This document shows, piece by piece, positions 4,202 through 35,226 of a stretch of DNA of 64,000 nt (its first letter is position 1; each line of letters opens with the position of its first letter). The notes under the pieces were generated by a model that was not told the DNA's origin, searched no databases, and saw only the letters and a list, made by a program, of their open reading frames with translations. Location of the stretch: contig CP070896.1 of the NCBI GenBank assembly GCA_017084465.1, positions 2,779,001 through 2,843,000 on the forward strand, in the 5' to 3' direction. The position numbers were made by a program, and so were the translations under genes. The DNA is from Lacrimispora xylanisolvens. Its GTDB lineage: Bacteria; Bacillota; Clostridia; Lachnospirales; Lachnospiraceae.

Positions 4202-5288
4202 ATGAAAAAAGTCCTTGTCAAGAAAAGAACTGGTGTGGAACTTTCTGGTTACTATCTTAGCTCTGACCGGAGCAACCATTGTTGCCTATCTGCTGGTCTT
4301 TGTGGGTGGACACACCGCGAATGTAAGTATCGTATATATGATGGCAGTTGTTTTAATCTCCCGTTTTTCAAATGGATATATACCGGGAGTCATAGCATCT
4401 TTCATCAGTGTAATCTGCGTAAATCTGGTATTTACATACCCTTTTATGCACTTAAATTTTACCATGGATGGATATCCCATTACCTTTATTGCTTTGATGG
4501 TGATATCCAGTATTACAAGTGCCACCACAACACATTTAAAATATCAGAATAAAATTATCCATGAACGGGAAAAGCTTTTAATGGAAGCAGAGAAAGAGAC
4601 GATGCGGGCAAATCTGCTGAGAGCCATTTCACATGATCTCAGAACACCCTTAACCGGAATAATCGGTGCAAGTAACTCCTTTCTTGATGCTCAGGATTCC
4701 ATGTCTGAAGAAGAAAAAGTGAATCTGATAAACGGAATCCGTGAAGATGCCAACTGGCTTCTTAACATGGTAGAAAATTTGCTGACAGTCACCAGAATCC
4801 GGGGTACCAAAACACAGATAACCAAATCTCTGGAACCATTGGAGGAGGTAGCCTCCGAGGCAGTCATGCGTTTTCATAAACGTTTTCCTGATACCCACGT
4901 AAGGGTAACAGTACCAGATGAACTGGTTATGGTACCTATGGATGCCACACTGATTGAACAGGTGATTATCAACCTTCTGGATAATGCAGTGTACCATTCA
5001 AATTCCAAAGATCCTGTCAGTTTAACCATCTCCATTGAAGATGGGAACGCCCGCTTTGACATCCGTGATCACGGGGTGGGAATTGCACCAGACAGACTTT
5101 CTACCATATTTGACGGATATACCCCTTCCCCAAACAGCAGTGGAGATTCTCATAAGGGTATGGGAATTGGTTTGTCCATCTGTAAGACAATCATAACCGC
5201 ACATAACGGAACCATAACAGCGGGCAATGAATCACTTGGGGCAATCTTTACTTTTACATTACCATTGGGAGAGAATACTTGTGAATAA
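4202..5288 (+). CDS. KdpD-like sensor histidine kinase (DUF4118 + HisKA + HATPase)
   Basis: Membrane sensor kinase that should phosphorylate the response regulator encoded next. Residues 1-110 form four closely spaced membrane helices (DUF4118, as in the KdpD sensor core). The dimerisation and H-box follows (RAISHDLRTPLTGI), then the N box (NLLDNAVYHS), G1 (DHGVGIAPD) and G2 (GMGIGLSICKTI). The N-terminal KdpD and Usp domains of full KdpD are absent, so K+ sensing cannot be assumed, and no kdp or trk transporter is nearby. The best start is ATG 4202 after GGGAGGGG, which needs one A fewer in the A6 run at 4205-4210 to give MKKSLSRKELVWN. A TTG at 4215 is in frame without correction. It overlaps the next gene by 8 bases. 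Confidence 0.87.
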
Positions 5289-15632: not shown

Positions 15633-15637
15633 TATCC

Positions 15638-15711
15638 CGTTCCCGAGGTGATTTGAACACCCGGCCTACCGCTTAGGAGGCGGTCGCTCTATCCAGCTGA
15701 GCTACGGAAAC
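15638..15711 (-). tRNA. tRNA-Arg, anticodon CCT
   Basis: The minus strand gives a full cloverleaf: acceptor GTTTCCG pairing with CGGGAAC (one G-U), D arm GCTCAGCTGGATAGAGC, anticodon stem CCGCC/GGCGG-type with loop CTCCTAA (anticodon CCT, reads AGG), and T arm CGGGTGTTCAAATCACCTCG. The discriminator base is G and no CCA is encoded. Confidence 0.93.
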
Positions 15712-15794
15712 ATCTCTGTGCTGCAGGCAACCTGCAGCACAGTTCAAAACTTATTATATTCAAATATAAAGAATTCGTCAAGTCATTCTTGGAT

Positions 15795-16683
15795 TTATTC
15801 CTCTGATTCCTTGAATTTTACAGTTCCCTGCATCCAGATCTGTCCTTTGAATCTGCGTCCGACTTCCGGTGTTCCCGTTAAGTCTTTTTTCGCGATACAG
15901 ACATGAAAGATTAAATCACTGCACTCAAGAGTAAAATCGTATACCTCTTCTTCTGTAATATGGTTCTTCATCTCATCAATTTTTTATGATTTCACCAATT
16001 ACAGAATACTGATCGCATTCTACGCCGCACGGCATAAAGCATGAATCAATAATCGAATACAAGTCTTCCTTCATAACCCGTCTTGACGCCTGGGAATAGA
16101 GATCAATATCTTCGATGGTTAATGTCTCCATCGCATCTTCATCGCCGTTCTTAGCCGCCTCTAACAGATTATTGCGGTCCTTTGCGGCTACTCTTGCTTT
16201 TTCCCTTTGCTTATCTGACTTCTGAATGGGAAGAAGAACCTTACCGCTGACTGCAAGACCCGTAAGGCATGAATAACTGGTATCCATGGAATGATGGTCT
16301 ATGATCCGTTCTCTGCATTCAAAGGAATTGTCTATATAAAAAATCAGAGAAATTCCAACTTTATATTCGTCTAAAAGCCCGGCGTAGGTTTCCCGTTCTG
16401 TGTGACGCTGTATGGAGCATGATACTTCTGAAGTTATATCACTGCTTTTTAAATATGGGTAATAGTACATTCTTTGAAACTTTCCATCCCGGTCCATCTC
16501 TCCATAGATGGCAATCCCCATTCCGGGCGCCACTTCTCTTCGGATTTCGCACAGATTGGACTCTTCGTCAATCTGTATCCTTTTTACATCGGACAGATCT
16601 TCACAGAGCTTATCTAACAGCTTATCAATTTCCCTGTCTTTTTCATAAAGACTGAAACCTATGGTTCTTAAGAATTTATGCAT
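15795..16683 (-). CDS. DUF3881 family protein, frameshifted near its C-terminus
   Basis: A protein of about 296 residues of a family common in Lachnospiraceae. It starts MHKFLRTIGFSLY after AGGTGATGATTCT. There is no signal peptide or membrane segment. The visible frame ends at 15976 after VIGEIIKN. Removing one A from the A6 run at 15980-15985 continues as IIKIDEMKNHITEEEVYDF and later RRFKGQIWMQGTVKF, stopping at 15795. The continued sequence keeps protein-like composition, so one indel is likely. The function is unknown. It stands between tRNA-Arg and gdhA. Confidence 0.8.
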
Positions 16684-16826
16684 AGAATCATCACCTGCTT
16701 TCTGTTTTTCTAAGATAATTTTCAGGAAAACAATAAGGCGAAGAATACTCCGCCTCAAGCCTTACGGTTTATTATATACTAAAACATTTGAGAATTCCAG
16801 TAAAATTTTTGATGTTAATAAATTCA

Positions 16827-16857
16827 GGTCCGTACCTTCCAAAAAAAGGTACGGACC
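16827..16857 (-). terminator. Hairpin after glutamate dehydrogenase
   Basis: GGTCCGTACCTT at 16827-16838 and AAGGTACGGACC at 16846-16857 form a perfect 12-bp stem starting six bases past the gdhA stop. The T-tract after it is weak (TGAATTTATT). Confidence 0.7.
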
Positions 16858-16862
16858 CGGTC

Positions 16863-18253
<1,391 letters not shown>

Positions 18254-18373: not shown

Positions 18374-21300
18374 TTACTTATCTGGCTTCTTTTTTTTATT
18401 AACAGCTGCATAGAGTGCCAGCATGAAGCCCGACAGTGCCACCATCACCTTTCCAGCATTGGACTTTCGTTCCCCTGTCTTAGGTAATTTTGCCAGAGGC
18501 ACATTCCCATCATCAATTGTAACGAAATCCACCTGGGTGTCTCCCGGCATATTTGCCAGCGGCACCGGATCCGGTATAATAGTTACTGTACTTTGAGGAG
18601 TTCTTGGACCAGGACCATCATCATCTCCCCCACCCCCTCGGATTCTTTCATCCTGTATGGTAATTGTAAAGCTATTGACGCCGTCAAGAGTCAGAGGTGT
18701 AATACTGGAGTTAATCTGATATCCGTATGGTGCTCTCGTCTCCACAAATGTATACGTGTCTGCTGGCAGACGTTTTATTGAATATTGACCGCTACTGTCT
18801 GTTTCAAATCTGGTAGCTTCTTTTTCATTGGCTGTATATCCGGCAAAGGAACCATTATTCAGTTTCACATAACCGTCTTTAGAGGCCTTCACAATAAATT
18901 CTGCCCCGCCCAGTCTGATATCTGCAAACACCGCATTGGTCTTAACTACAACCACCTTAGATGGCTGATTTTCAACTGCCCCCTTGGTTTTTTCAAATAA
19001 AGTAGGTTTCACATAAAGCTCACTGGTTTCAGACTGGCTTAAGGTAAATTCTCTGCTCCATGGCTGAGTCCCCAGTAAATATCCACTAGGCGCTTTTGTC
19101 TCTGTGATACGATACGTTCCATAAGGCAGGTTTGTAATCACTGCCTTCCCTGAAAGGGTGAAGACAATGGAACTGCCGGTTACATTATCTGATGTCCAGG
19201 ATGCTCCGTCAGAGGCTGCCAGATTCCGATAACTGTCCCATGCTCCCGGCACCATAGTAGATACATTGGTAAGCGTAAATTCCGCCCCAGCCAGCCTTTT
19301 ATTAGTATCTTCACTGTCTACCTTTTCCAGGCTCATGCTTCCTTTACTGATCTGATTTGTTACGGTTAAGCTTACCTCAGATCCGTTGTCTACCGAAACT
19401 GCCTTGCTGTTATCCTTTAGAATGCTTACCTTCCCTTTTTCATCCACTCTGATATAGAACGGTTCAATGGAATCATAACGGTCAGTGGCAGCCTCTCTGA
19501 TCTGGTAATCTCCGTGTTTTAAACCAAGGCTTAAAGTACCGTCCTCGCCTGTAACAAAAGTACCGTTTCCGGCATCCGGCAGGGTGTGGAACCGGTTGGC
19601 TCCGAATACGGATAAAATTCCGTTATCCTCATACTTACCAGGTCCCAGGATATAAAAGCTGATTCCGCTTATGCTTCTTTTCAGATTATCTGTCTTCTTC
19701 AGCTTAATAACAAACTGTGCCCGGTCATTGACTACCTGGTTATCATCGTTAAGCTTAGCATTCTTTTGGTCTGCAGACAGAGTAAATTCAAATTCTGCTT
19801 TCCCGTTTAAGCTTAAATAACCCTCCGGTGCTTTTTCCTCTTTTAGCGTGTAGGTACCATAAGGTATATTGCCAATATCAACGTGACCGCTTAACGCCGT
19901 AAATCTAATGCTGTCTCCGTCTTTTTGTACATCCCTGATTCCCATGGCTTCCAGTTCTTCCACACTGGTTTTAAGCAGCTTATCAGCGAAATCTTCATAT
20001 GTCCCTTCTATCTGTGTGGTTCTCTTCGTTAAAGAGAATTCCGCTGACGGAAGAAGTTTCTCTGTTACTCCATCCACCTTGTCAAAGGTCAGGTTTCCGG
20101 TTCCATAATCATTGAAGACAAGTTCACTTCCATCTGTTGTTACGGTGCTGCTTTCACTGTCTGCCTTTAAGGTGACTTCATAGACCCTGCTGCCGGCTTC
20201 ATATCCCGCCGGTGAAACCTTCTCTTTCACATAATAAGTTCCAAGAGGAAGCATCTGTGACTCACCCAATCCGTCAATTCCAGTTGTGATGGTACCTGCT
20301 AATGCCGTTAATTCCTGATCAGAGTAAATATCGAACACTGCTCCGGAAAGATGCATTTCATGGTTGTGGGACGCAGCCTTGTTAATACGTATTTTAGCCC
20401 GCTCTCTTGCATCAAACACCTGGATCCTGTCTGTATTACCAGCTTCCAGTACGGAAACTTCCGTATCCGCAGACACACTGTAGTTTTCCGGGGCTTTTAT
20501 TTCTTTTAATACATAGTTTCCTGCAGGCAGACGTTTTACCGTTACTGTACCGCTGCTGCCTGTTGTAAAGGAAGATCCCTCCTCTTTTTTGTCTGTCAGA
20601 CCGATAAAGGAGTTATTGCCATCAAGGCTTACATACTTTCCTTCAGGTGTGATTAGAATGAATTCAGCATTGGAAAGCAGAGCATTTGTTGACTTATCCC
20701 GTTTCTCAATTGTCAGTTCATGAGGTGTGTTGATAACTGCCTCATTTCCTGTCAGACTGATTCCTTCCGGTTCTTTCAGTTCAAACTCTTTTGTAAACCC
20801 ATAATCACCGCCGAAGAGATATCCACTAGGTGCCTGAGTCTCCTTCAGTGTATAGGTTCCGTATGGTATCTGGGTCAAACTTCCCTGTTTGGAATCTCCC
20901 AGGCCGTCTATACGGAATGTTACGGAGAGGACATCTCCATTGGTTTTAGTCGTAACGTTAGAAACACCGGATCCTGTCACATTATTTAAATATTTTTTAA
21001 ATGCTCCATTAACCAGTGACGTACCGCTGAGTTCAAACCACGCTCCCGTAATAAGACTCTTACTTTCCCCATCCATTTTCTCAATCACAATGGGTGCAGT
21101 CAGCACGTTGTTTGTTACAACCACATTGATTTTCTTCTGTTCCTGACTATCAAGAACAATATCCGGCCTGTCTTTTGCGTTTAACAGTGATACCGCTCCA
21201 TCCTGGCCGATTCTGACATAAAACGGCTCTATTGCCTGATATCCAGGAGATGGAAGCTCTGTAATCTCATAATCGCCGTAAGGCAGATTCCAGGTTACAA

Positions 21301-24300
21301 CGCCATCCTCACCGGTCTGTTTCACTTCATAACCGGTATTGTCCGGATCATTTACTTTAAACTTGTTTCTGCTAAATGGATTCCAGGTATTGCTTACATA
21401 TTTCCCTGGCCCTGAGATGGAAAATGAGATACTCTTTACTGCTTCATTTCCGGCGTTATCCGCCTTTCTGATGCTTAAACTGTATTCTGTTCTGGTATTC
21501 TCAATAGCATTTCCTTCTATGTTGTTTAATTGTGCCTGCTGCCCATCCGAACTGATTTCAAATGCAGTTTCTTCCAGTTTCTTTGAAATATCATATCCGT
21601 CAGCAACCTGGATTTCTGAAAGAGTATAGCTTCCAAGTGGTATTCCCGTAATATGAACTGATCCGTCAGTAACTTTAAAACTAACGCCCTGACTGTTCTC
21701 TTTCACATCAAATATTCCCATGGTTGCAGAATCTTTCTTCATTGATGCAATCATAGCATCCCATGCATCTTTCACCACATCACTCTTTTTATTAATCTGG
21801 AATGAAGCACCGGCAATTTTCTCTTTGGTGATCCCGTCAATCTTTGTAAAATCAAGTGAACCGGCTATATAAGAATCCTCTACTGTAACCGTACTTGGAA
21901 TGGGATCAGCCTCTGTCTTAAACTCTTTACTCTTAAGAACCCATGCCTTTTGACCCTGTACCTGATAGGAATCCATTGCTTCCATATCACTGGAGACAGC
22001 ATCAGAAAGCTGATAACCTGCGGGAGCGCCATCCTCAACAATGATATAGTTCATGTAATACAGAAGCTCTCCTGCATTCCACACTGCATCACCGTCGGTA
22101 AGCGTTGTTTTACCTTCCGAAACCGGAGTCTTCAGCACGTTTGTATTAGTAATTTTTGTATTACGTAAGGAATCCATTTCCTGGTTTGTAAAAGGACCAT
22201 ATACCGTAAAATGAGCTCCTTCAACCGGGTTTTGGGCTTTGTTTGTTTTCTTTACTGTTACACTTCTGTAAGGTACAAAGCCTATGTCCTTGGTTGTATC
22301 GAATTCCCCTGCTGTTGACCATAAGAAGAAATCTTCTGAGGAATATCCGTTTTTCGTTTCATTAAAGTTGCTGTCACGGCTTTCATCGTAATTGGCTCCA
22401 CCCTCCAGCAATGTCTTTGGAATTCTGGATCTGCCAGCTTTTTTATTTTCTCCATCCGGCAGCATATTTGGCTTAGCAAGTTTTAATATCAGATCTTCAA
22501 AGCCTTTCGGCATAGTTCCTTCGCTCACTTCAATTTGATAATGAGCCGGATCATCACCCTTTAAGCTGTTTAATTTCAGTGATGTACCGCTGTACCATTT
22601 ATCCTGTATACTTTCCGTGATCTCTGAGTCAGGGAGATCGTAAGGCTTAGCAGGAGTCAGGCTGTCAAATAAGAATCTGGCATCTCCGGTTCCCGGTACC
22701 ATAGAGGTCTGATCATCCCCATTTTTACTAAACTTCAACAGGCTGACCTTGAAGTAACCACTTTGTAACAATGGGTACAGGTCGGTAAGCAGATGATCCT
22801 TGTTAACACTTTCATTCTGTATTCCGTTGTTGTCATCATCAATCCAGATTCGTCCTGATACCTTTACTTTTCCAGGAACCAGAAGCACCTGAACGGAATT
22901 GCTGGTCTGTACCTGTGAAAATGGTTTTTCTATACTCTCAAGACTTGCTTCTTTATAACTATAGGCTGTTGCAAAATCATTCACAGCATATCCGTAAGCA
23001 ACATCCTCCAGCTCTTTTGCCGTACTGTAGGGCACAACAGTCTTGTAGGTAACAACCAGATTTTCTCCTGGCGCCAGATAAAATTCAGGATCAGTGATCT
23101 TAATGCGGATGGCTGTTGGATCACTGGAACTTCCCGACCAGAATCCGGAAGAGTTGTTATTTAACATAGCATTCTTTCCGGCATTTGCCGTATCCCGATT
23201 ATCAAATGTTTTATTGGAATACGAAATCTCATAGTCAAAGCCCTGAACTTTTCTTCCTGAACTTCCGGTATCTTTTCTGTTTTCAATTTCAATGGACTGA
23301 ATACTGTCATATTTCAGGCGGAAATCACTGAGTCTTTCAAAATTACCTGTACTGTAATCTCCTTTAACCGGCAGAACATCCATAAGCTGCAACTGGCTGA
23401 CATAATCCTGAGCCGATGCATTATTTACCATAAGCCGGTATAATACGGTTCCATCATACTGAGTGAGTTCGGTATCCTCTGCTGACTTCGCCACCTTACC
23501 TGTGGTAGTTCCGGAAACGTATCTGGTATCCAAATTACCTTTTACTTCTTTATAAAGCTGGATACCCGTTCCGGTGCTCATGGTATTCTCGGCAGAATCG
23601 GAAGCATAACCGTAACTGCGGTATTTTTCATCCGGTAGCTGAGCGCCGGACGGTAAATCATTGCTGGGCCACTTGGTACCTGAGCTGGTATTAATCATAA
23701 AGGAGGCACCGGTATGGTTCAGCGAAAATGCCGGCTGCAGCACATCGCTTGTTACAAACAGGGTGTTTAAAATGTTCTTACCATAATTAATTATATTTCC
23801 TGCAATCTTTGCTTTTACCGATACTGTAACAGACTCTCCTTTTTGCAGATTCCCGTTCAGACGTATAAACAGTGTCTCACGCCCTGTTTCAGGGTCCACT
23901 TTCCGGACTGTCTTATCAATCGTTACACCAACAGGCGCCCGATCCAGTGCGACCGCCGTCAGCAGTCGTTCCTCTCCGGAAGTCTCTCCGGAAACGGATA
24001 CTCCTAAAGGAACCAGATCTACAAGAACCGGTTTCTGGATAGGTGCAATTCCGGTATCACTGCTGGTGGTTGCATTGGTTACTGTAAGCGTATAGGTAAG
24101 TATATCACCTGGCTGTACTCCCTTAACAGGATTTACATTTTTACTTACTGACAGGATTGGAGCCTGGCTTTGAACTACGGAAATATCGCATAATGCTTCT
24201 GTCTTGCTGGCATCCTGACCGGTATTTAAGGTTCCATTTACATCCCACTTCCGGTATTTCATAGATACATCTGCTTTGTTACGAATAAATTTAATATCCT

Positions 24301-27300
24301 TTTTGTAGCTTCCGTCAGCAAGTGTTGCATCCTGACGATTCAGTTTTGCTGTAACAGCAATGGTTCCAGGTACAAAATCCTGCCCCAGTGAATAAGCGTT
24401 TTTGGTAGATCCCTTTAACGTCTCATCCCGGTAACTGATTTTAAATGATTTTACTTTCCTGCTGCCAGCAGGTTTTATCTCACCAATTTCACCATCCCCG
24501 GACACACTTACGGTCTGCACCGTTCCAATCTGGCTTTCGTCAAATCCATAGAAGGTAACATCTGCCATAATGGTTCCTGTTCTTCCTTCCTTCAGTCGGT
24601 TTACCTGAGCGGCTTTTCCTGGCTTAACAGAAAGAATAGTATATTTTTCATTGGTGTATTCTTTTTCATCAAGAACATTTTTACCTGAATCCAGCATAGT
24701 CAGTCCCTGGTCAGTGACTTCGTACTGATCAAGAGGTATTGTATTAACTGCTCCTGGTGTAAGGGTGTAGGTAACCACCTGACCGTCATTCCACCATAAA
24801 TCTTTTAAAGAAGTAGTCTGAGTGGACTTTTCAAGGTTTACTCCTGTCTTCTGCTTAACGTTAGTAAATTCTAAGGGCGACGGAATATTTCCTTTTTCAA
24901 TGGTTACTTCCTTTTTATAAACAGTTCTGTTGTCATCCGGATTAATTACATATCCATCTGTATTTGGCGTAATAGCTGTCTCTTCTATCTCATAGGTTCC
25001 GGGAAGCAGCATAACTGTGGTTCCGCTTTCACCATAAGGTACTGAAACAATATCTCCCGCCTGTTTTCCAGTTTCTTTATTTGTTACCTTTACAAATGCG
25101 TTTATGGCAGAGGACGGATTATCCTGTTTATTTACATCATTCTTAAACAGTTTTAATGGCAGCGCTTCCTGATTATGAACCGTAAACTGATAGACTCCCG
25201 GTGCTTTGGTATTACGATCAGAAAGCACGTATAAATTAAGGTTCCGTATGGTCTCGCCATTCTTATTTAAATCTGCGGTTACGGGAAGAATGGATCCACT
25301 TCCGCCATCAAAAGCCTCCAGCCTGAAGGTATAAAATCCATGATCCTTTACAGGCACTTCATATAACCCGTAAGAATATCCAGATTCCTGTTTCAGACCC
25401 CGGAATGAAAGTTTACCCTGGGCGTCGGTGGTTCCCTCTGTTACATAGTTCCAGGTATCGCCGGCTTCTTTTATAAAGCTCAAAGATGATTCCCGCTTTT
25501 TCGGCCTCTGTTTTACCGTCTCCACTGTATTTGGTAATCTGGAAATCAATGCCGCCCTGATTTTCTACGGTAATCTCCGTAGTCTTTCCGGTCTCCGCTG
25601 TCAGTCCCTGTTCCGGAACTGCTGTCCCAATGGTCAAATATCCCAGAGGAGCATTTGTTTCTTTCACATAATAAGTTCCCGGATTGAATTTCTTTGTAGA
25701 TAATAATAACTCATAAATACCGCTTGTTCCGATCTCTTTAAAATCACCTACATAGGATGTCAGTGCCTGATCGGAATATAAGCTGAATCCAGCACCGGTC
25801 AGCTTCTTTGAAGAATCTGCTGCATCAACTTTTATTATGCGTATTTTTGCTTTTGCATACTGATTTTCAACTCCTACTGCAACCGGAGTCTTGGTGGTAA
25901 AATCAGAATTCGTTCCCACCTGGATATAACCATCAGACCATAGTTTTCCATTGGTTACACCGGTTTCTCCAGTCAGCATCCAGTCTGGGTTTTCCCGCTC
26001 TTTTACATAATAGGCTCCGCCTTCCGGATTCTGAGCCAGCTGAACTTTACCTTCTGCGGTATAATAGCCCTCTGCTGCCGCAAAGTTATGAATCGTTACG
26101 GTAGCTGGCTGGTTCTTCTCATCATATACCGGCTTGTAGGCCTTTTGCGCATCAGAGTAAGTATAAACATCAAACACAACCTGAGATGGAAGTTTATCTT
26201 TAATATCCTGATCATTTATAAACCCATCTCCAAAAATAAGTTTCTTTGTTATTGTCAGAGTAACCTTTTGCCGGTTTTCAAAGGTTACTTCCGTATTTTG
26301 ATACGTTCCGGTCATATCACCGGTCACAGCCACTACTAACGGTGCGGTATCAATGGTATATCCCTCTGGTGCTTTTGTTTCTGTAATGCGATACCAGCCT
26401 GGCTGACAGTTTTTAAGGATATAAGAACCATTCCCCTGATCTTCCAGAGTTTTTGTCAAAGCTGTAAAACCATCTACTGGTTTGTCGTAAGCAGGATCTT
26501 CTACATTCCGCAGAACACCTCCGTCTAAATCCGTACCTGGACGGAACTTCATGTATTCCAGGCGGAACTCTGCTCCTTTCATGGAATCACCGCTTTGCTT
26601 ATCCTCACCATCTGTCTTATGTAATGTGATCTGTGCGAGTCTTGGGTTTCTAACCGTCAGTGCAGACAGAGGTCCTGTTATTCCATCAGCAACCGGAACC
26701 AGAGTTACTTTGTTGCCGTCTGCAACCGGCTTATAACCAACAGATACGGAATGTTGTTCGAAATAATAATCCGTTGCTGTATTTTCAGCGCTGCTTCCCA
26801 GTTTCTCACTGAGTACAGTATAGGTGCCGCTGTCAAGTCCGTTTAATACAGCAAGATATCTTCCGTCTCCCTGCTTTTGTGTGACAGCTGTGACCTGACT
26901 GCCTGATGGAGTCTTTAATGTAAATGTAATACCAGAAAGTCCTTCTGGCCGCTCTCCGTTCCATGCTGTTTCAATCTCAAGCATTGGCTTTTGCGGATTG
27001 TAAACAGGTACTGTCAATGACGTACTGGCTACGGTAAAATACCTCCAAAGCCCGTTGCTACCGGTATACATGGTAATATATTGTTTGTTCTGTTCCGTAG
27101 TCAGCGTTTCCTTCATTCTATAGAGACCGGAAGGAAGTCCGCCGGGTATTAAAATCTTACCGGTACTGTCTGTTGTATAAGTGCCGTATTTCTTATAGTC
27201 ATATCCAGATGCATTCCATTGATATTGCCAGACTTCAAATGCAACCCCAGAAAGAGATGTTTTCTGAATATTCATCCCGTCTAGTTCGTCATCTGTTTTC

Positions 27301-30300
27301 TGGAATGTGCCTGTATCCGGGAGTATATCCGTATTTCTTAAGAGTTACCGGATATTCTTTAGAGACCTTGTTAATCAGCCTGAATTCAGATGCTTTCCCA
27401 GAGTCCCAGAAATACTGCTCATCTATATAATCCTTACTAATTGGTACTGTCACATTTAAAACATGAAGTGTTGAATCCATTGTAACCTTAGATGGTGCAT
27501 AAATCTCTTCCAGTCCCAGAACCAGCTTAACCGGGTCTCCTTCCGTGTTATATTGAAGGATATCTTTTGGAATCTTACCCAGTTCAGTAATTTTATTACT
27601 TACTTCATCAAGCCTGATTGTTTTTGAAAGTGCATAACCAGTTTTATGAGTACCATCAGATTCCAATCCTGTTTCCACTACATCAATCGGCAGAAGTTTT
27701 TCATTATTTTCCGGATTCAGCAGCCATATCTGGAATTTTGCTCCGCCTAGCAGACTATATTGCTTTTCTGCAGTTTCCAGCCATTTATTTAAGGCAACCT
27801 GAAAATGATAATTTTCAAGTCCCGTACCTCCGCCAGAATGCTGATTGGTAACGACTGCTATCTTTTCATTTCTTCCACTCTGATAAGAGTGACGGATTTC
27901 ATCATAACCGCTATATTCCGAATGATCCGGTACAAATACGGCAGCGATTTTTCCGCCTTCTTCCAGAAGATATCCCGGTGCGGCCTGATCCTCAACCAGC
28001 CAGTATACATATCCATCATCCAGAATTGTAGTATCAAACTGCCCATCCTGGCGTTTACCTGTCTGGGGATCAATCCGGGTGCCGCTCTCATATTGGCCTT
28101 CTGTCTCAAATCTGCTTCCATCCGCTAAATCTTTCATCTGGATGGTGGCTAAATTCCTGGTGTCATCAAGCATCTTATAAAGTGTAAATCTTGCACCGTT
28201 TACCATGTGGCGTTCATCATGGGTTCCTCCGCCAAAGGTTATCCCATCACAGGTCTTCCATACGTTAAACTGAACCCAGGATTTATAGTTGAAAATTGGA
28301 TCCGTATACCTGACCAGTGAATCTACATTGGCAGGAAGGTCTTTACCACTAAATACAACTGCATTATAGCGGGTCTGTAAATCTGCCACAGACAGACTCT
28401 TTGCAGGCTGACCATTCTCAAGTGGAAGCGGTTCTTTATTGCCCATATTTAATTCAAAAGGCAGCCTGGATTCACCCTTTGTGGGAACCCGTACTTCAGC
28501 CACATAATATGTATCTTTACGGTCAATATCGTTAAATGTGGCAATACCATCAAATTCATTTGTTACCTGTACCTGCACAAAATCTGCAATACCTGGCTGA
28601 TCCCGGTTCACTTTATAAAGAGCCAGGTTTACATTTCCTAACGCCCTGTTTACCTCATAGAACTGATCATTCCAGCCATCACGCCAATATTTCTGGGTAC
28701 GAATGGTCAATTTGGGCTCATCTTCAATAATAAGCGGCGCGCCTATTGCCTCTCCGTTTACAGTGGAAATAGTCTTTCCTTCTGTTAATGTGGTGGTCAG
28801 AATATTATAAGACGGAAGGTATCCTGAAGGTGGAGTAATTTCAGCAATTACATAAGGTATCCTGATACCGCTGTCATCAAAATACGCAGTTTACTGCTGT
28901 CGAAAATCACCTGACCGTTAGCCCCGGATGTCTTTGTCTGAATGGGGTTTTTAATACTATTTGCCCAGTCAGCTTCATGGAACTGAGATCTTAAGTAGAT
29001 TCCAAAAACAGCACCACTTACCGGTGTTTTTCTTAAAGCATCCTGTTTGGTAACCATTACTCTGCCATAGTTCTGATAATTCTCCAGAGACTTGGTTCCA
29101 TTCAGATAAATATTCGTATTTTTCTCAGCTGTCGACTCTGCCGCAGTTACAGTCGCAGGCCCGTAGTAAACCGCCCCATTCTGAATAATGTAACCATCAT
29201 ACTGTCCATCTGCCTTGTTTTTTAGCAGAAAAAGTGGATTAATAATATCCGACCCAAGAATTTCCTTAAAATAATAGGTCCCCGGTGCCATAACCGTATC
29301 TGTATTGGATACGATTGTATTTTTGTTATCTGGAAGGGTAACTGCTCTAAAATGATCTCCATCTTTCTGATACACTTCAAATGTGATCTTTACATTATTA
29401 TCCGTGCTTCCATTTGAATTATATTTTATCTTTTTTAAATTAACTGTTTTATAAGGCTTATTATAAAATTTTAAGTGAGTGGTTGTAGCCTCTTTCGGAT
29501 ACCAGAACCATTCTTTCAGCTGTTCCCTGTTTATAGGGCCACTGGGAGTTGTAAACTCACTGATTGCTGATCCAACATAATTATCCGGAGCCTTTACTTC
29601 TTCTACCCGATACTTTGTTCCTGGATCCAGAGAGACAAATGTACCATCAAGAGTTACGTCTCCCTTAAATACTTCCACACCATCTGTAACCCTGGTAATT
29701 CGAAATGTTGCTGTTATTCTTTTACTGTTATCCGTTATGTCATACTTATGAAGCCAGTAGGGCACTTTCTGAGGTATGTTATATGCCTTTACATTAGTAT
29801 CTGACTCCTGCTGACAGTATAGGGACCAATGAGAGGTGTTTTTATGCCATTAACAATTGCGTCATCAATATTTTTTCCTGTCTCATCTGCTTCCAGGCGA
29901 TCTGCACTTCCTGATTCACTCCAGTAGTAATCTTTGGTAATATCCAGATTACCAACAGTAATGATACCATTTTGATCTGTGGTATAGATTTTTCCAGGAG
30001 TTACTTCGCTGTAATTATTCTGATTTTTATCAGCTGCATACAACTTAAACTGATAACCGGCATTGGAATTACCTGTATTAATCCAGCCGGATGCCCACTG
30101 GTTTCCAAAGGACCAGGTTTCTTTCTGAAGCTTAAGAATCGCCTGCCTGTTATTTTTTATTTCAACTGAAGTTGTTTTTTAATGGCACCAGTGTAAATTC
30201 TTTACAGAGATAAGTTTTGCTGTTTTTTGTTTCAGTAGTAAAACCGCTTCCTGCAGGATTTCCATCCGAATAACCATCCGGAAGTTCCTCCACTACCCGG

Positions 30301-33300
30301 TAGCGAATCACGCGGTTACCATTGTCATAAACAGGAAGAACTGCTTCAAAACCACTATTACCATCCAGTGAATAGGTTTCCTTTGAATCTACGGAAACTC
30401 TGGTCCAGCTGCTGCCATCAGCAGTCGTTTCCAACCAGAAATGGTTATCAAAATTCCCTTTATACTGTTGCGGAACGGACTGATAAGTCCCATCATCCTT
30501 TTGGAGCAGTTTAGTTACCTGAACCTTTGCCTGATTTAAAGTATTAACAAGATAATTGCTGTCTTCCTTTAAAACAGATGTTTCCCCTCTTTTAACAGTA
30601 ACCGGGTACTCCCTGGTATCAATAATATACCCGTTGGCACTTTTTTCCTTAATTACGTATTCACCTGGAGTAACGGGCTTAAAACGTACCAGACCATTTC
30701 CGTCTGACTGAACCGTTGTTACCTCAGTTAATGTACCGTTGTTTTTTGTATAAAGTGTAAACTGCGCACCACTTAAGGCGTTTAAATCGTTTTCCTTTGC
30801 GTCTACGGTGCTCCATATCCGTGCCTTTTTATAAAATTCAATTGCACCTTTTCCTACAACGTTATTAACGACTTTAACTTCTTTATTCTCTCCAGCCTTA
30901 ATGGTAAACTGAATCTCCTGGCTGTCTTTAAAGGTCTTAGAATCCGCAATTGCATAACTGTATTCTGTTCCTGCAGGCTTCTTTCCTTCCTTAATCACAT
31001 AAATACCAGGATCAGCCTGAATCTGAATATACCCTCTGTCTCCGGTTGTATAGGAGATTGTTTCACCAGATTCACTGGATGGATTAACAGCTATTGTTCC
31101 TTTTTGGATACCTTTCCCGTTTGGATCTAACACAGTATAGTTGTCATAAGGTGTCTGGTTTCCCTGAGTATCAACCGAATAAATCTCAAATTCAGCAGAT
31201 CCGGGATATTCCTTTTCCATTGTCAGATCATACGGTTTTAAAACGCCAATTCCTTCATCCAGCATTTTAGTTATCTGAATGACTGCTGGTTTATTAACCT
31301 CATGAACCGCTACCGCAGATTCAGAATCATCTTTCATAACCTGGCTGGTTCCCAGCTTTACATATTCCAGATGTGCCTGGTTTAAAACAGTAAATACTGT
31401 AGAATCATTGGCACGAGGATCATTGTATTTTAAAACAAATGGTTCAAATGGATACCTGGCTGTAACCAGATAGGAACTGTAGGTAGGTGCCAGATCCGAT
31501 ACATAAATATGATCAGCCCCGTTTTGCCCCTGTGTCTTATGACTGTTTATTACAATAGAACCATCTTCCTTTTGATCTACAGGAATGCTGTTTCCATCGC
31601 CCCATTTTGCTATGACAGATACAGGCTTCATCTCTGCGGGAGCATTGGGTGTTGTTATAGATAGTTTATCCGTAATATGGAAGGAACCTTCTTTAAATCC
31701 GGTACGTCCATAGGTCTGATAAACCGTGCCATCAGGCTGTCTTGATATCTCCCCCTGGTTTCCGTACATTCCCACTTCTATCATGTAAGTAATGTCTACG
31801 TATTGGGGATTCCCCTGATTATCATTAATGATATCGTAAGACTGATCCGTAGGATAAACTCTTTTTTTAATATGCCACTGATCATCAGATATCAATTGAA
31901 GCTGAGTCTGGGATGGCTGTGTAGCATAAGTAACCGTTGAAATATTACCTGGATAAGTAACTTTATCTTTATCCGTTTTATCCGCAACCTTAACATCAGC
32001 ATGAAATGCAACGCTGTTGTCTGGCAGGGTAAAGTTTTCTCCTACCGCTCTTTTACCATTTCCGTCTATGTAAGCGTTTATTATAATATTATCCGATTTA
32101 CCCGGACGTATGGAATGATTTTCGTCGCCTGCCTGAATTTTATAAACGCTTTTCTCACTGTCTGAAGTTTCAAGTTCCACTTTATCTTTCTGCTCCTCCA
32201 GTGTGATTCCAGCAGGAACAGTAAAATAAATGACAGCATTTTCATAAGTATCAAACAAAGACAATTTGCCGCCTGCTGCATATTCATAAAGAGGAGCAGC
32301 CTGCATGGTATAAGTAATTGTATAAGTAAAGAGTTTCCCTGCCTTGATTTCTCCGGTCATACTCTGGGCAAGGTTTATTTCTACCGTTTCTTTTTTATCT
32401 GTGGCATCTTCTCCATAATAGCTTAATGCTGTTTCATAGGGTGAAAGCTTCGCCTCATCGCTTACTTCCATATTCAATAATGTGATACCATAGCTTGGAA
32501 CTACCATAGAGAACGAAGGTTGAACAAATAAGGAAGTCAGGCTAAAGCCATTGTCTTCTTCACTGCTAACGCCCATTAATGCAGACTTTTCATCACCAGA
32601 TAATACCTTTCCATCTCCAATAGACACAATATCTGCACTGTCAAATTGTTCCGGCGCATTAACTGCCTCTGAAGGAGTGGCAACAGTCTCCTGTGCTTCT
32701 GAAAGCACTGGAACCTGGTGTCTGGAGATAGAGAGCTGCTGACTACCTATTTCATTTTTGCTTACAGTCAGCTCATCACCAGATACGGAATTACCGGAAT
32801 CTTTACTACCTTCCTCCGGCTCAGCTTTTTCTGTTTTTACCTCATCCTGTTTATCATCCTCTGTCTTTTCTTCTCCAGTCTCATCTGAGATGGATTCATG
32901 GGAGTCATCTTTACCTGCCTGTGTTTCAACGGCTTCCGATTCATTCTCCGTTGATGAGGCAGCTTTGGTTTCTGAATTTCCAGTACTGCCCTCATCCTTT
33001 GTACCTGAAGTGGTTTCAGTAACCTGTGTTTCAGCAGCCGTTTCTTCTATTGTCTCTGCTTTTGTTCCTGCTGCCGCAGCTGCTCCTGTAGAACCTCCAG
33101 TTGAATTATCCAAACCATTCTGCAGTGTGGCTTCCTCTGAATTCTCTCCCACAACCGCATACTCATCCATCTGGGCATCTGTGACAACAAAATTATCACT
33201 TACTATCCTGAGACGGAATTCGCATTCCCGGTCTTTATAACCATTTACACCAATAATCTGAACGCTTTGAAGAATAGATTCCTGTTTAATACGGTCTGAT

Positions 33301-33746
33301 TCATCACTTTCAGAAAAGGGCTCATCACCAAGAACATCGGAAACAACCACAAGGTACATGGCCTTACCTTCTTTTTTCTGAAGAATTAAGGTTTTTCCTT
33401 CCAGCTCTTCATACAATTTTTCCGTAACCAGATCTTTTTGTTCCCCTTTAAACGGAATCAGATCTTCTTTTAATTCAGGTCTTCTGTCAGCATCCTTTTT
33501 AAGGACTTTTTCTATGGCAGACTGGGTGATTTTGACATCAATAACCTGTTTTGCCTGTGATGGCGTTGCTTCTGACGGAGATGCCTTGGACGCATTGGAT
33601 GGACTAGCCGTATTTCGTTCTGTATACTCTCCCGCATAAACCGTAATTGCGGTAAGCTGTGATACATTTCCCGAGACAATGGCAATTGTTAATAACCAGG
33701 CAAGTACCCGCTTAAAACGATGTATTTTTTTCATTGCTCCCTTCAT
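18374..33746 (-). CDS. Giant LPXTG-anchored CnaB/SpaA-type surface protein (about 5,100 aa), five frameshifts
   Basis: Secreted cell-wall protein. Start ATG 33746 follows GGAGGG. The signal is MKKIHRFKRVLAWLLTIAIV, followed by SPSNASKASPSEATPSQAK and a Ser/Thr/Glu-rich stretch (about 33.1-32.5 kb). Many CnaB-like beta-sandwich domains come next (G-x-Y-x-[VI]-x-E-x-x-A-P-x-G-Y endings such as YRITETKAPEGY, TLKETQAPSGY). Mid-protein segments resemble DUF11 (GDILTYTLTVTNATT) and SdrD-B (RIWIDDDNNGIQNE). The C-terminus is Pro/Gly-rich, then LPKTG (18473-18487), a hydrophobic helix and KKKKPDK: a sortase signal. Five one-base breaks near 30176, 29826, 28886, 27325 and 25480 each rejoin continuous domain sequence when corrected, while 25.4-18.4 kb reads uninterrupted. 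CnaB domains often form Lys-Asn isopeptide crosslinks. The role is probably adhesion or a stalk. No sortase gene is in the window. Confidence 0.85.
18650..20105 (-). repeat. Second, diverged copy of the A-B-C-D block
   Basis: Same order and almost the same length as the block at 20410-21870. A' starts LTFDKVDG, B' holds ISFYILGPGKY and IEPFYIRVDEKG, C' holds YRITETKAPSGYL, and D' holds KLNNGSFAGYT and IKRLPADTYTFVE. The copies are clearly related but diverged at the protein level, which indicates an old internal duplication. Confidence 0.75.
20410..21870 (-). repeat. First copy of a four-CnaB-domain block (A-B-C-D)
   Basis: Within the giant gene, four consecutive CnaB-like domains occur. A starts near LDFTKIDG, B contains ISFSISGPGKY and IEPFYVRIGQDG, C contains TLKETQAPSGYL, and D contains SLDGNNSFIGLT and VKRLPAGNYVLKE. 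Boundaries are approximate. A fifth domain (about 20.4-20.1 kb, INKAASHNHEMHLSG) separates this from the second copy. Confidence 0.75.
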
Positions 33747-34112
33747 TTCCACACCCTCCTATATATTTTTTACTCTTTCTAAATTCGTCTTCTATTTTAA
33801 GCCATGAGATGGCAATATTTCCCTCTTTCTCAGTATACATGAGACCGGTTACAAGCCAGTTATTTTTGGTTACATAATCATTTTTAACCAATTAATTTTT
33901 ATGCTTGTTTTCTCACTACTTTGTATGCTTTTTTCCTTAATTCAAGTACATTTTTCATCACTTTTTAACACAAAATTATAACTTGATTCTAACTGTTAAC
34001 TTAACATATATTCGTTGTTTACATTTATTGTTCTGTGTGATAAAAATAACATAAATATGTTTTTTTTAGTTTTATAATTATCAAGCACGGGGATATTAAA
34101 AAAGGAGAGGTC
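33747..34112. other. AT-rich intergenic region upstream of the giant gene
   Basis: This 366-base stretch separates the divergent giant surface-protein gene and a small ORF. I see the GGAGGG ribosome site of the former, the AAAGGAGAGG site of the latter and many A/T runs. I see no convincing sigma-A promoter, riboswitch or terminator. Confidence 0.5.
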
Positions 34113-34258
34113 ATGACTGTTGAAGAAAAAATGAGAATTGCTATTGAAGAAGGCGCAAAATCATTACAAAATGGGGAATTTTATTAAAGAAATACATTGA
34201 AATAAAAAAAGAAGGCGCTTTAACTGATTTTTGTAAAACATTAATTAATTTAGGATAA
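34113..34258 (+). CDS. Small ORF of about 48 codons, unknown, one frameshift
   Basis: Starts MTVEEKMRIAIEEGAKSLQ after a strong ribosome site (AAAGGAGAGG). As printed it stops after 27 codons. Adding one T to the T4 run at 34180-34183 continues as FLLKKYIEIKKEGALTDF and ends CKTLINLG at 34258. The product would be a short, charged, mostly helical peptide with no signal or membrane segment. I do not recognise the family. The ribosome site and plausible composition support a real gene, but a 27-codon version or a non-gene cannot be excluded. Confidence 0.4.
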
Positions 34259-34359
34259 TATTTACTAATTCTGTTGCCATCTTGACAGAAAGCCTGTTTA
34301 ATTCTAAAATAGATCCAACTGACTAATTTCTAATTACAAAAAAAGAAGGTCTTAAACAT

Positions 34360-35226
34360 ATGATACAAGATATATTCCCCCACGTATTTCATAACGAATT
34401 TGAAGTAAAATCACCTGCTGAAGACAGCTATTTTTTCTATTTTTCAGAAGGGAGCATCTGTCTGACAGAAGGCAAATCCAATACAATTCCCCGATTCTCC
34501 GCATTAGAAGATGAGGTTAGAAACCGATTCATGTCCCATTGTGATTATTTATTTTCCATCGATCAGATGGTTTTTTTTCTGGTAGACGAAACCAGCGTAT
34601 CACTGGCGGATACCCCCGGTATCAGTCTTTTGAAAATTAGCATATTGCGGGAATTAACCCCCATGTGGGTGTCTTTTTCAGCTGTGTGTGCCTCACAGCT
34701 TCATCGCTTCTATTTATCTAACCGCTACTGCGGTTGCTGCGGATCAGAGATGATTAAAAGCAAAAAAGAACGGTCTATGGTTTGTTCCTCCTGCGGTAAC
34801 ACCGTCTATCCAAAGATTGCACCCGCAGTCATTGTTGGCATCATACACGACGGAAAGCTGCTGCTTACGAAATATGCAGGCAGGGAATATACACGCTATG
34901 CACTTCTGGCTGGTTACACAGAGTTTGGTGAAACCTTAGAGGATACGGTAAACCGGGAAGTCATGGAGGAAGTTGGTCTGCGCGTAAAAAATATACGGTA
35001 CTATAAAAACCAGCCATGGGGCTTTTCAGATTCCATTTTGATGGGCTATTGGGCCGAGCTGGATGGTTCTCCACAAGTCACGCTGGATGAAACAGAATTA
35101 TCCACAGCTGTCTGGATGGCTCCTGAGGATATCCCCGACGATTTTACCAATATCAGCCTGACCCATGAAATGATTCTGTTATTTAAAAATGGTAAAATAA
35201 ACGAAACCCAGGGGGAAAAAGCCTGA
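34360..35226 (+). CDS. nudC: NudC-type Nudix hydrolase (NADH pyrophosphatase family)
   Basis: A 288-residue enzyme expected to hydrolyse NAD(H) or to remove NAD caps from RNA. The zinc ribbon is CGCCGSEM followed by CSSCGN (two Cys pairs), then YPKIAPAVIVGI. The Nudix box GYTEFGETLEDTVNREVMEE fits the G-x5-E-x7-RE-x2-EE pattern. The NudC-specific downstream motif appears as NQPWGFSDSIL, close to the usual SQPWPFP. The N-terminal 110 residues are poorly conserved, as in the family. The stop abuts the stop of the convergent DUF3267 gene. Confidence 0.9.
   Translation: MIQDIFPHVFHNEFEVKSPAEDSYFFYFSEGSICLTEGKSNTIPRFSALEDEVRNRFMSHCDYLFSIDQMVFFLVDETSVSLADTPGISLLKISILRELTPMWVSFSAVCASQLHRFYLSNRYCGCCGSEMIKSKKERSMVCSSCGNTVYPKIAPAVIVGIIHDGKLLLTKYAGREYTRYALLAGYTEFGETLEDTVNREVMEEVGLRVKNIRYYKNQPWGFSDSILMGYWAELDGSPQVTLDETELSTAVWMAPEDIPDDFTNISLTHEMILLFKNGKINETQGEKA

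Follow-up and report, generated by a model that had tools for sequence, protein, structure and literature searches.

Six reading frames along one giant gene

The window analysed in this work is a stretch of 64,000 nucleotides from Lacrimispora xylanisolvens, whose genome of 5.63 Mb is assembled as a single contig with an estimated completeness of 89.5%. The minus strand of the window carries six consecutive open reading frames (Table 1), which had been predicted, from the letters alone, to be parts of one sortase-anchored surface protein. All six are present at the predicted places, and they tile the intact protein of a relative (L020, 5,126 aa stop to stop) from end to end, in order and gap-free, with 92–95% identity and overlaps of 1–3 residues. 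The same gap-free order was obtained against two distant relatives, L024 (45–64% identity) and L034 (45–60%), with overlaps of 1–7 residues, and our alignments indicate that the tiling of the six pieces along one protein is not attributable to chance. The start codon is an ATG with GGAGGG upstream, and it lies at position 33746, which coincides with the end that the original prediction had given to the gene. The prediction that the junctions rejoin within domains is borne out at the break between pieces 3 and 4, which cuts through one SpaA domain. No Rfam family was found at gathering score over positions 33500–34500; a promoter scan returned 29 sites, fewer than in shuffled sequences (mean 38.0), and a terminator scan returned 18, slightly more than in the shuffles (13.7, sd 3.6).

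Table 1. Position in the window of the giant gene, its six pieces and the domains assigned to its product
Feature	Position	Strand	Remarks
Whole giant surface protein gene region	18374..33746	minus	six frames here; one frame of 4,356–5,204 aa in 18 fully read relatives
Piece 1	30162..33758	minus	signal peptide, N-terminal domain, Ser/Glu linker, head, first CnaB domains; L020 residues 1–1193
Piece 2	29789..30178	minus	weak SpaA match, slightly below Pfam cut-off; L020 residues 1193–1316
Piece 3	28848..29849	minus	SpaA, the last domain running on into piece 4; L020 residues 1314–1626
Piece 4	27289..28890	minus	SpaA; L020 residues 1626–2146
Piece 5	25413..27344	minus	SpaA, 3 Pfam stretches; L020 residues 2146–2764
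Piece 6	18374..25564	minus	end of CnaB array 1, centre, CnaB array 2 (10 Pfam SpaA stretches), anchor; L020 residues 2762–5126
Signal peptide	33633..33746	minus	by eye: basic start, hydrophobic core
Ser/Glu-rich linker	32547..33149	minus	50–270 aa across 18 relatives, strongly variable; approximate limits
Conserved head region	31197..32561	minus	about 455 residues
CnaB/SpaA array 1	24914..31241	minus	slots 1–17, 10 confident; across pieces 1–6
Central region	22265..24913	minus	about 880 aa, weakly DUF11-like in part; approximate limits
CnaB/SpaA array 2	18683..22261	minus	slots 18–27; includes a four-domain block duplicated long ago
Doubled LPXTG anchor domain (NF033073)	18386..18586	minus	LPKTG at 18473–18487, hydrophobic stretch, basic tail

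Domain architecture and isopeptide triads

The product would begin with a signal peptide, followed by an N-terminal domain that matches no Pfam family at E ≤ 0.1, a variable linker, the conserved head, a first array of CnaB/SpaA domains, the centre, a second array, a Pro/Gly stretch and a doubled anchor domain, in which the predicted LPKTG signal was recovered. Over the six pieces, Pfam finds SpaA in 17 stretches (E ≤ 0.01), the one in piece 2 falling slightly below the family cut-off. Five seed domains of the window served to build a profile, which was then iterated on the relatives and defined 27 domain slots, 20 of them with E < 1e-3 in at least 16 of the 18 copies and seven weak. Solved CnaB proteins match piece 6 (for example 6fwv, E 2.4e-11). 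The protein is poor in Cys (0.1%) and Arg (2.7%) and contains 7.6% Lys.

For the head, Pfam gives nothing better than E 0.08, and profile searches of the PDB with the head and the centre returned no match at E ≤ 1; two AlphaFold models (mean pLDDT 46.8 and 31.8) were unusable. DUF11-like and SdrD-B-like segments had also been predicted. The former survive as a weak similarity in the centre, where PF01345 exceeds its cut-off in L020 and 8 of the 18 relatives match at E ≤ 1, but in the window's own piece only the TIGR01451 repeat model appears, under its cut-off (18 vs 24 bits). The SdrD-B family is not among the domain matches, its sole trace being one D-x-D-N-N-G-x-Q motif.

According to passages of a report on such proteins (PMC8092201), the isopeptide rule is a Lys–Asn/Asp bond with a catalytic Glu. 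Lys, Glu and Asn/Asp are kept at 20 of the 20 confident CnaB slots, in all the copies holding the position (16 to 18 of 18), a count that leaves out the seven weak slots and for which many of the Lys and Asn/Asp positions had been chosen by eye beforehand. In the profile alignment, whose rows also served to train the profile, Glu is found in 356 of 356 rows and Lys in all 270 rows with a residue. The residue at the Asn/Asp position changes from one to the other between copies in slots 4, 11 and 16 (20-slot numbering), an exchange compatible with isopeptide chemistry. The conserved triads support the isopeptide-stabilised stalk that had been foreseen as a possibility, and suggest that isopeptide bonds would form in the CnaB domains.

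A core gene of the genus Lacrimispora

A profile of the head matches 24 of the 25 genomes of the genus, including all 22 of high quality. The exception (G005, 82% complete) carries, at the end of a contig, the C-terminal part of the gene (88% identical to residues 3822–5115 of L020). Twenty stretches of the genus were examined; 18 of them span the gene, and in the other two it is truncated by the limits of the stretch or contig. That leaves five genomes: the source genome, three in which the gene is contig-cut or partly matched (G008, G020 and G021) and G005. In all 18 fully read copies the gene is a single open frame with no stops, and it occupies the same genomic place, where its 3΄ end adjoins gdhA in every copy and its 5΄ side faces a NUDIX gene in 17 of the 18; in six wider comparisons the synteny extends further. 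The dN/dS values of seven intact pairs (0.12–0.17) point to constraint. Thus the single gene proposed for the six frames is what the relatives carry, and our comparisons indicate, at the level of sequence, that it belongs to the core genes of Lacrimispora. A tRNA-Arg (cct) lies at 15637–15712 of the window, on the minus strand.

Among named genomes, the N-terminal piece was found at seven loci, three in Lacrimispora (xylanisolvens, amygdalina and defluvii) and four in MAGs with other labels. Outside the genus, the first piece gave weak matches, confined to the SpaA part, in 2 of 36 genomes, and plasmid records searched with the head gave no match. In the family, the head was detected in 3 of 397 sampled genomes, namely two of the genus (the source and G017) and G252, of another genus, where the match (E 1.5e-23) is on a short contig. 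In this last locus (L070, G252:C154) the head region, 28% identical, follows a signal-peptide-like start and an acidic linker and is truncated where the contig stops. A search of the order with the centre was positive in 7 of 392 sampled genomes, of which five belong to the genus; in the other two (G246 and G515), from outside the genus, the centre matches within other giant open frames of 4,032 and 6,507 aa with main alignments 24–28% identical. The 6,507-aa frame (L068 and L069, G515:C9), from another family of the order, contains SpaA domains and, close to its start, a long EPAEEE repeat.

A predicted stalk of near-constant length

Counted from the first Met, the lengths of the 18 copies lie in the range 4,354–5,189 aa. 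Outside the linker, 16 of the 18 species copies measure 4,913–4,938 aa, and 15 of these 4,913–4,925, with linkers of 188–270 aa; pairwise identity is 56–99% among the 16 and goes down to 53% among all 18. In the two remaining copies, L036 and L037, the corresponding lengths are 4,304 and 4,686 aa, with most of the shortening in array 2. When domains were compared across species in five of the 18 copies, the top match fell in the corresponding slot 338 times out of 372, and L036 or L037 took part in 32 of the 34 exceptions. Slots 19–22 and 24–27 of array 2 (27-slot numbering) are mutually related and form an old duplicated block of four, one copy of which is missing from L036. The closest paralogous domains inside L020 are about 24–42% identical. 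The same-slot matches and the low identity of the paralogues argue that each domain is ancient and has been retained individually, and that, in these comparisons between species, the repeat number has hardly changed.

A repeat-variable adhesin was rejected on the grounds of little repeat turnover and a near-constant length outside the linker. The pattern indicates instead a stalk of fixed length, which was unexpected.

Proposed role of the protein

We propose, with considerable confidence, that this Lacrimispora core gene encodes a wall-anchored CnaB chain of about 5,100 residues that would hold an N-terminal head off the wall, and that the breaks in the source copy are most likely errors. The protein (562 kDa in L020) would be exported through its signal peptide and would fold outside the cell into some 27 CnaB-like β-sandwich domains, most of them with an internal Lys–Asn/Asp isopeptide bond, while its C terminus would be attached to peptidoglycan, most likely through a class B sortase. 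A CnaB domain measures about 4–5 nm, which gives for the predicted rigid chain a length of the order of 100–200 nm, at which the head would be kept at a fixed distance from the wall. The head, in which no known adhesive domain was found, would have a putative ligand that may perhaps be a polymer of plant or gut origin, the surface of a host or another cell. It is a tentative and somewhat doubtful idea that the roughly 4,919 residues are under length selection and act as a ruler that sets the wall-to-head distance, with anchoring by the class B sortase, a strategy that would be the opposite of the 'periscope' one.

The near-constant length outside the linker, the few signs of repeat turnover, the fixed genomic place of a core gene and the dN/dS given above would also suit a structural spacer of the wall or surface layer, that is, a fixed-length coat whose head would attach to neighbours or to polymers of the cell itself and not to a foreign ligand. 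This is the main rival, and we consider it unlikely: Pfam lists neither an S-layer homology nor a wall-polysaccharide-binding domain in the protein, and the head, at the N terminus, lies farthest from the anchor, which is the layout of an adhesin. A stalk that presents its head away from the wall is the reading that we retain.

Origin of the frame breaks

Five frame breaks are present in the assembly as given, and taken at face value they would mean that in the source strain the gene is a pseudogene in decay or codes for several shorter, separate proteins. We asked how often the neighbouring genes are broken, using as probes the ORFs of a close relative (G018) of at least 130 aa, with more than 75% identity and at least 85% covered (genes failing these limits were dropped and are uncounted). 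By this measure 10 of the 34 other genes that passed sit in more than one piece in the window, which adds 12 pieces over 33.1 kb (0.36 per kb), and the giant gene, with five joins in 15.4 kb (0.32 per kb), is broken at the same rate. The enzyme gene gdhA, a single 444-aa frame in G018, is in two pieces in the window, and its dehydrogenase domain crosses from one frame to another. Frame-changing alignment gaps inside the giant gene numbered five in three of four comparisons (one of them pooling two relatives, with 13.6 kb covered) and ten in the fourth, against G018, which outside the gene gave 45 in 43.4 kb, intergenic sequence included.

The completeness of the source assembly compares with 98–100% in 21 of the 24 other genomes of the genus. 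The pieces, besides being 92–95% identical to an intact relative, have dN/dS values of 0.125–0.140 against three relatives, similar to those of the intact pairs, and one of the breaks cuts a domain. Because ordinary neighbours, gdhA included, break at the same rate, sequencing or assembly error is most likely the simplest account of the breaks in the source copy, and we regard a true pseudogene, or separate proteins, as quite improbable. Ordinary genes, gdhA among them, are split across frames at 15979–18199 of the window and elsewhere, and the record appears rich in frame errors.

Relation to known surface proteins

The protein is of a known kind, as sortase-anchored SpaA stalks (PMC8286594) and much longer LPXTG giants (PMC3778203) are described in portions of the literature. 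In the passages of PMC8286594 that deal with them, fibrillar adhesin-like proteins have 1–73 stalk domains, a range that covers the approximately 27 of the giant protein, and those with SpaA stalks share with it a signal peptide, an N-terminal distal region, the SpaA stalk and a C-terminal sortase anchor. The definition used in those passages asks for stalk domains, a surface anchor and at least one known adhesive Pfam domain, and the first two are found in the giant protein. It differs in that its head is an orphan by sequence, with no adhesive Pfam domain, and none was found in the pieces, the N-terminal domain, the head or the centre, as judged without that survey's list of 27 domains.

The original prediction had placed the size far above that of typical adhesins; this is not exceptional, since the available text of PMC3778203 reports LPXTG giants with 74-kb genes. 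These, such as the Adlercreutzia proteins AEQU_0093 and AEQU_1251, are likewise very large sortase-anchored putative surface proteins low in Cys and Arg, but they are about five times longer, and the published giants are described there as Lys-poor, unlike the protein studied here with its Lys content given above. Periscope Proteins, as presented in parts of PMC9704523 (see also PMC8201768), are similarly single-chain rods that project a head from the wall, but they have highly identical repeats and variable length, whereas here the closest paralogous domains (in L020) are about 24–42% identical and the length is nearly fixed; neither high-identity tandem repeats nor length variation were found in our comparison, which is between species. 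Proteins of the TIE type, such as 6fwv, also combine CnaB domains, Lys–Asn/Asp bonds and a catalytic Glu, according to the passages of PMC8092201 cited above, but the giant protein has far more domains, and no thioester domain was matched by Pfam in its pieces, head or N-terminal domain. In Clostridioides difficile (C. difficile), CD2831 is described, in sections of PMC4591827, as a CnaB-containing putative adhesin anchored to peptidoglycan by the class B SrtB, so that both systems would pair a CnaB putative adhesin with a clostridial class B sortase. CD2831 differs in its PPKTG signal (LPKTG here), its collagen-binding domains, its size (seen at 120–155 kDa) and its control by a c-di-GMP riboswitch, as those sections report, while the sequence upstream of the giant gene has no Rfam match.

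No description of the giant protein was found in the open-licence full-text literature, searched by title and start of abstract, and one may be in print elsewhere. As far as the papers searched show, what is new is a genus-wide core member of near-fixed length. Six apparent gene fragments thereby become one very long gene, conserved throughout an anaerobic genus. The 18 full-length orthologues form a natural set for a surface protein built of repeats, and because these repeats hardly turn over, selection on stalk length becomes a directly testable question. The head, for its part, offers for study a domain family without recognised fold or ligand.

Anchoring and sortases

The NF033073 anchor model is over its cut-off in the giant protein, and the PF00746 anchor model has no match in the genome. 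Window-wide, no sortase gene was found. The genus-wide class models were of class B only, and with them 59 matches were obtained, 42 over the cut-off and 17 under it, at least one over it in each of the 25 genomes; in nine of the 25, PF04203 detects a single sortase, each time one with a class B match over the cut-off. The source genome has two sortases; the class B model is the best match for each, over its cut-off in one and under it in the second. Because a class B enzyme is present in all 25 genomes and is the sole sortase in nine, it is likely the one that anchors the giant protein.

A covalent pilus subunit, polymerised by a class C sortase, was rejected as most improbable: CnaB domains are common to pilins, and the NCBIfam SpaH/EbpB major-pilin model (NF033902) is over its cut-off on piece 6 (144.5 vs 95 bits, as the sum of seven stretches) and matches pieces 4 and 5 below it, but a pilin motif of the YPK type is absent from all six pieces and its stricter forms from all 18 relatives, the window is without a sortase, nine of the 25 genomes have only the class B enzyme, and the best NF033902 stretches fall late in the model (positions 374–501 of 540), so we read the match on piece 6 as probably reflecting shared CnaB domains.

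Other proteins with related features were seen in these genomes. A second protein with a doubled LPXTG anchor (L058, G000:C1, around 4500987) is followed by genes that, by eye, look like those of a response regulator and a sensor kinase. In three relatives (G006:C1:1474883, G014:C1:4334748 and G015:C1:4324271) the end of another doubled-anchor protein, in frames of 3,260–3,278 aa, lies some 13 kb past that of the giant gene. Two more runs of SpaA domains, split over several open frames, lie in the same genome at G000:C1:4548940–4553199 and 5576101–5583204, the first about 12 kb from the sortase at 4565427, and these are probably other large CnaB proteins.
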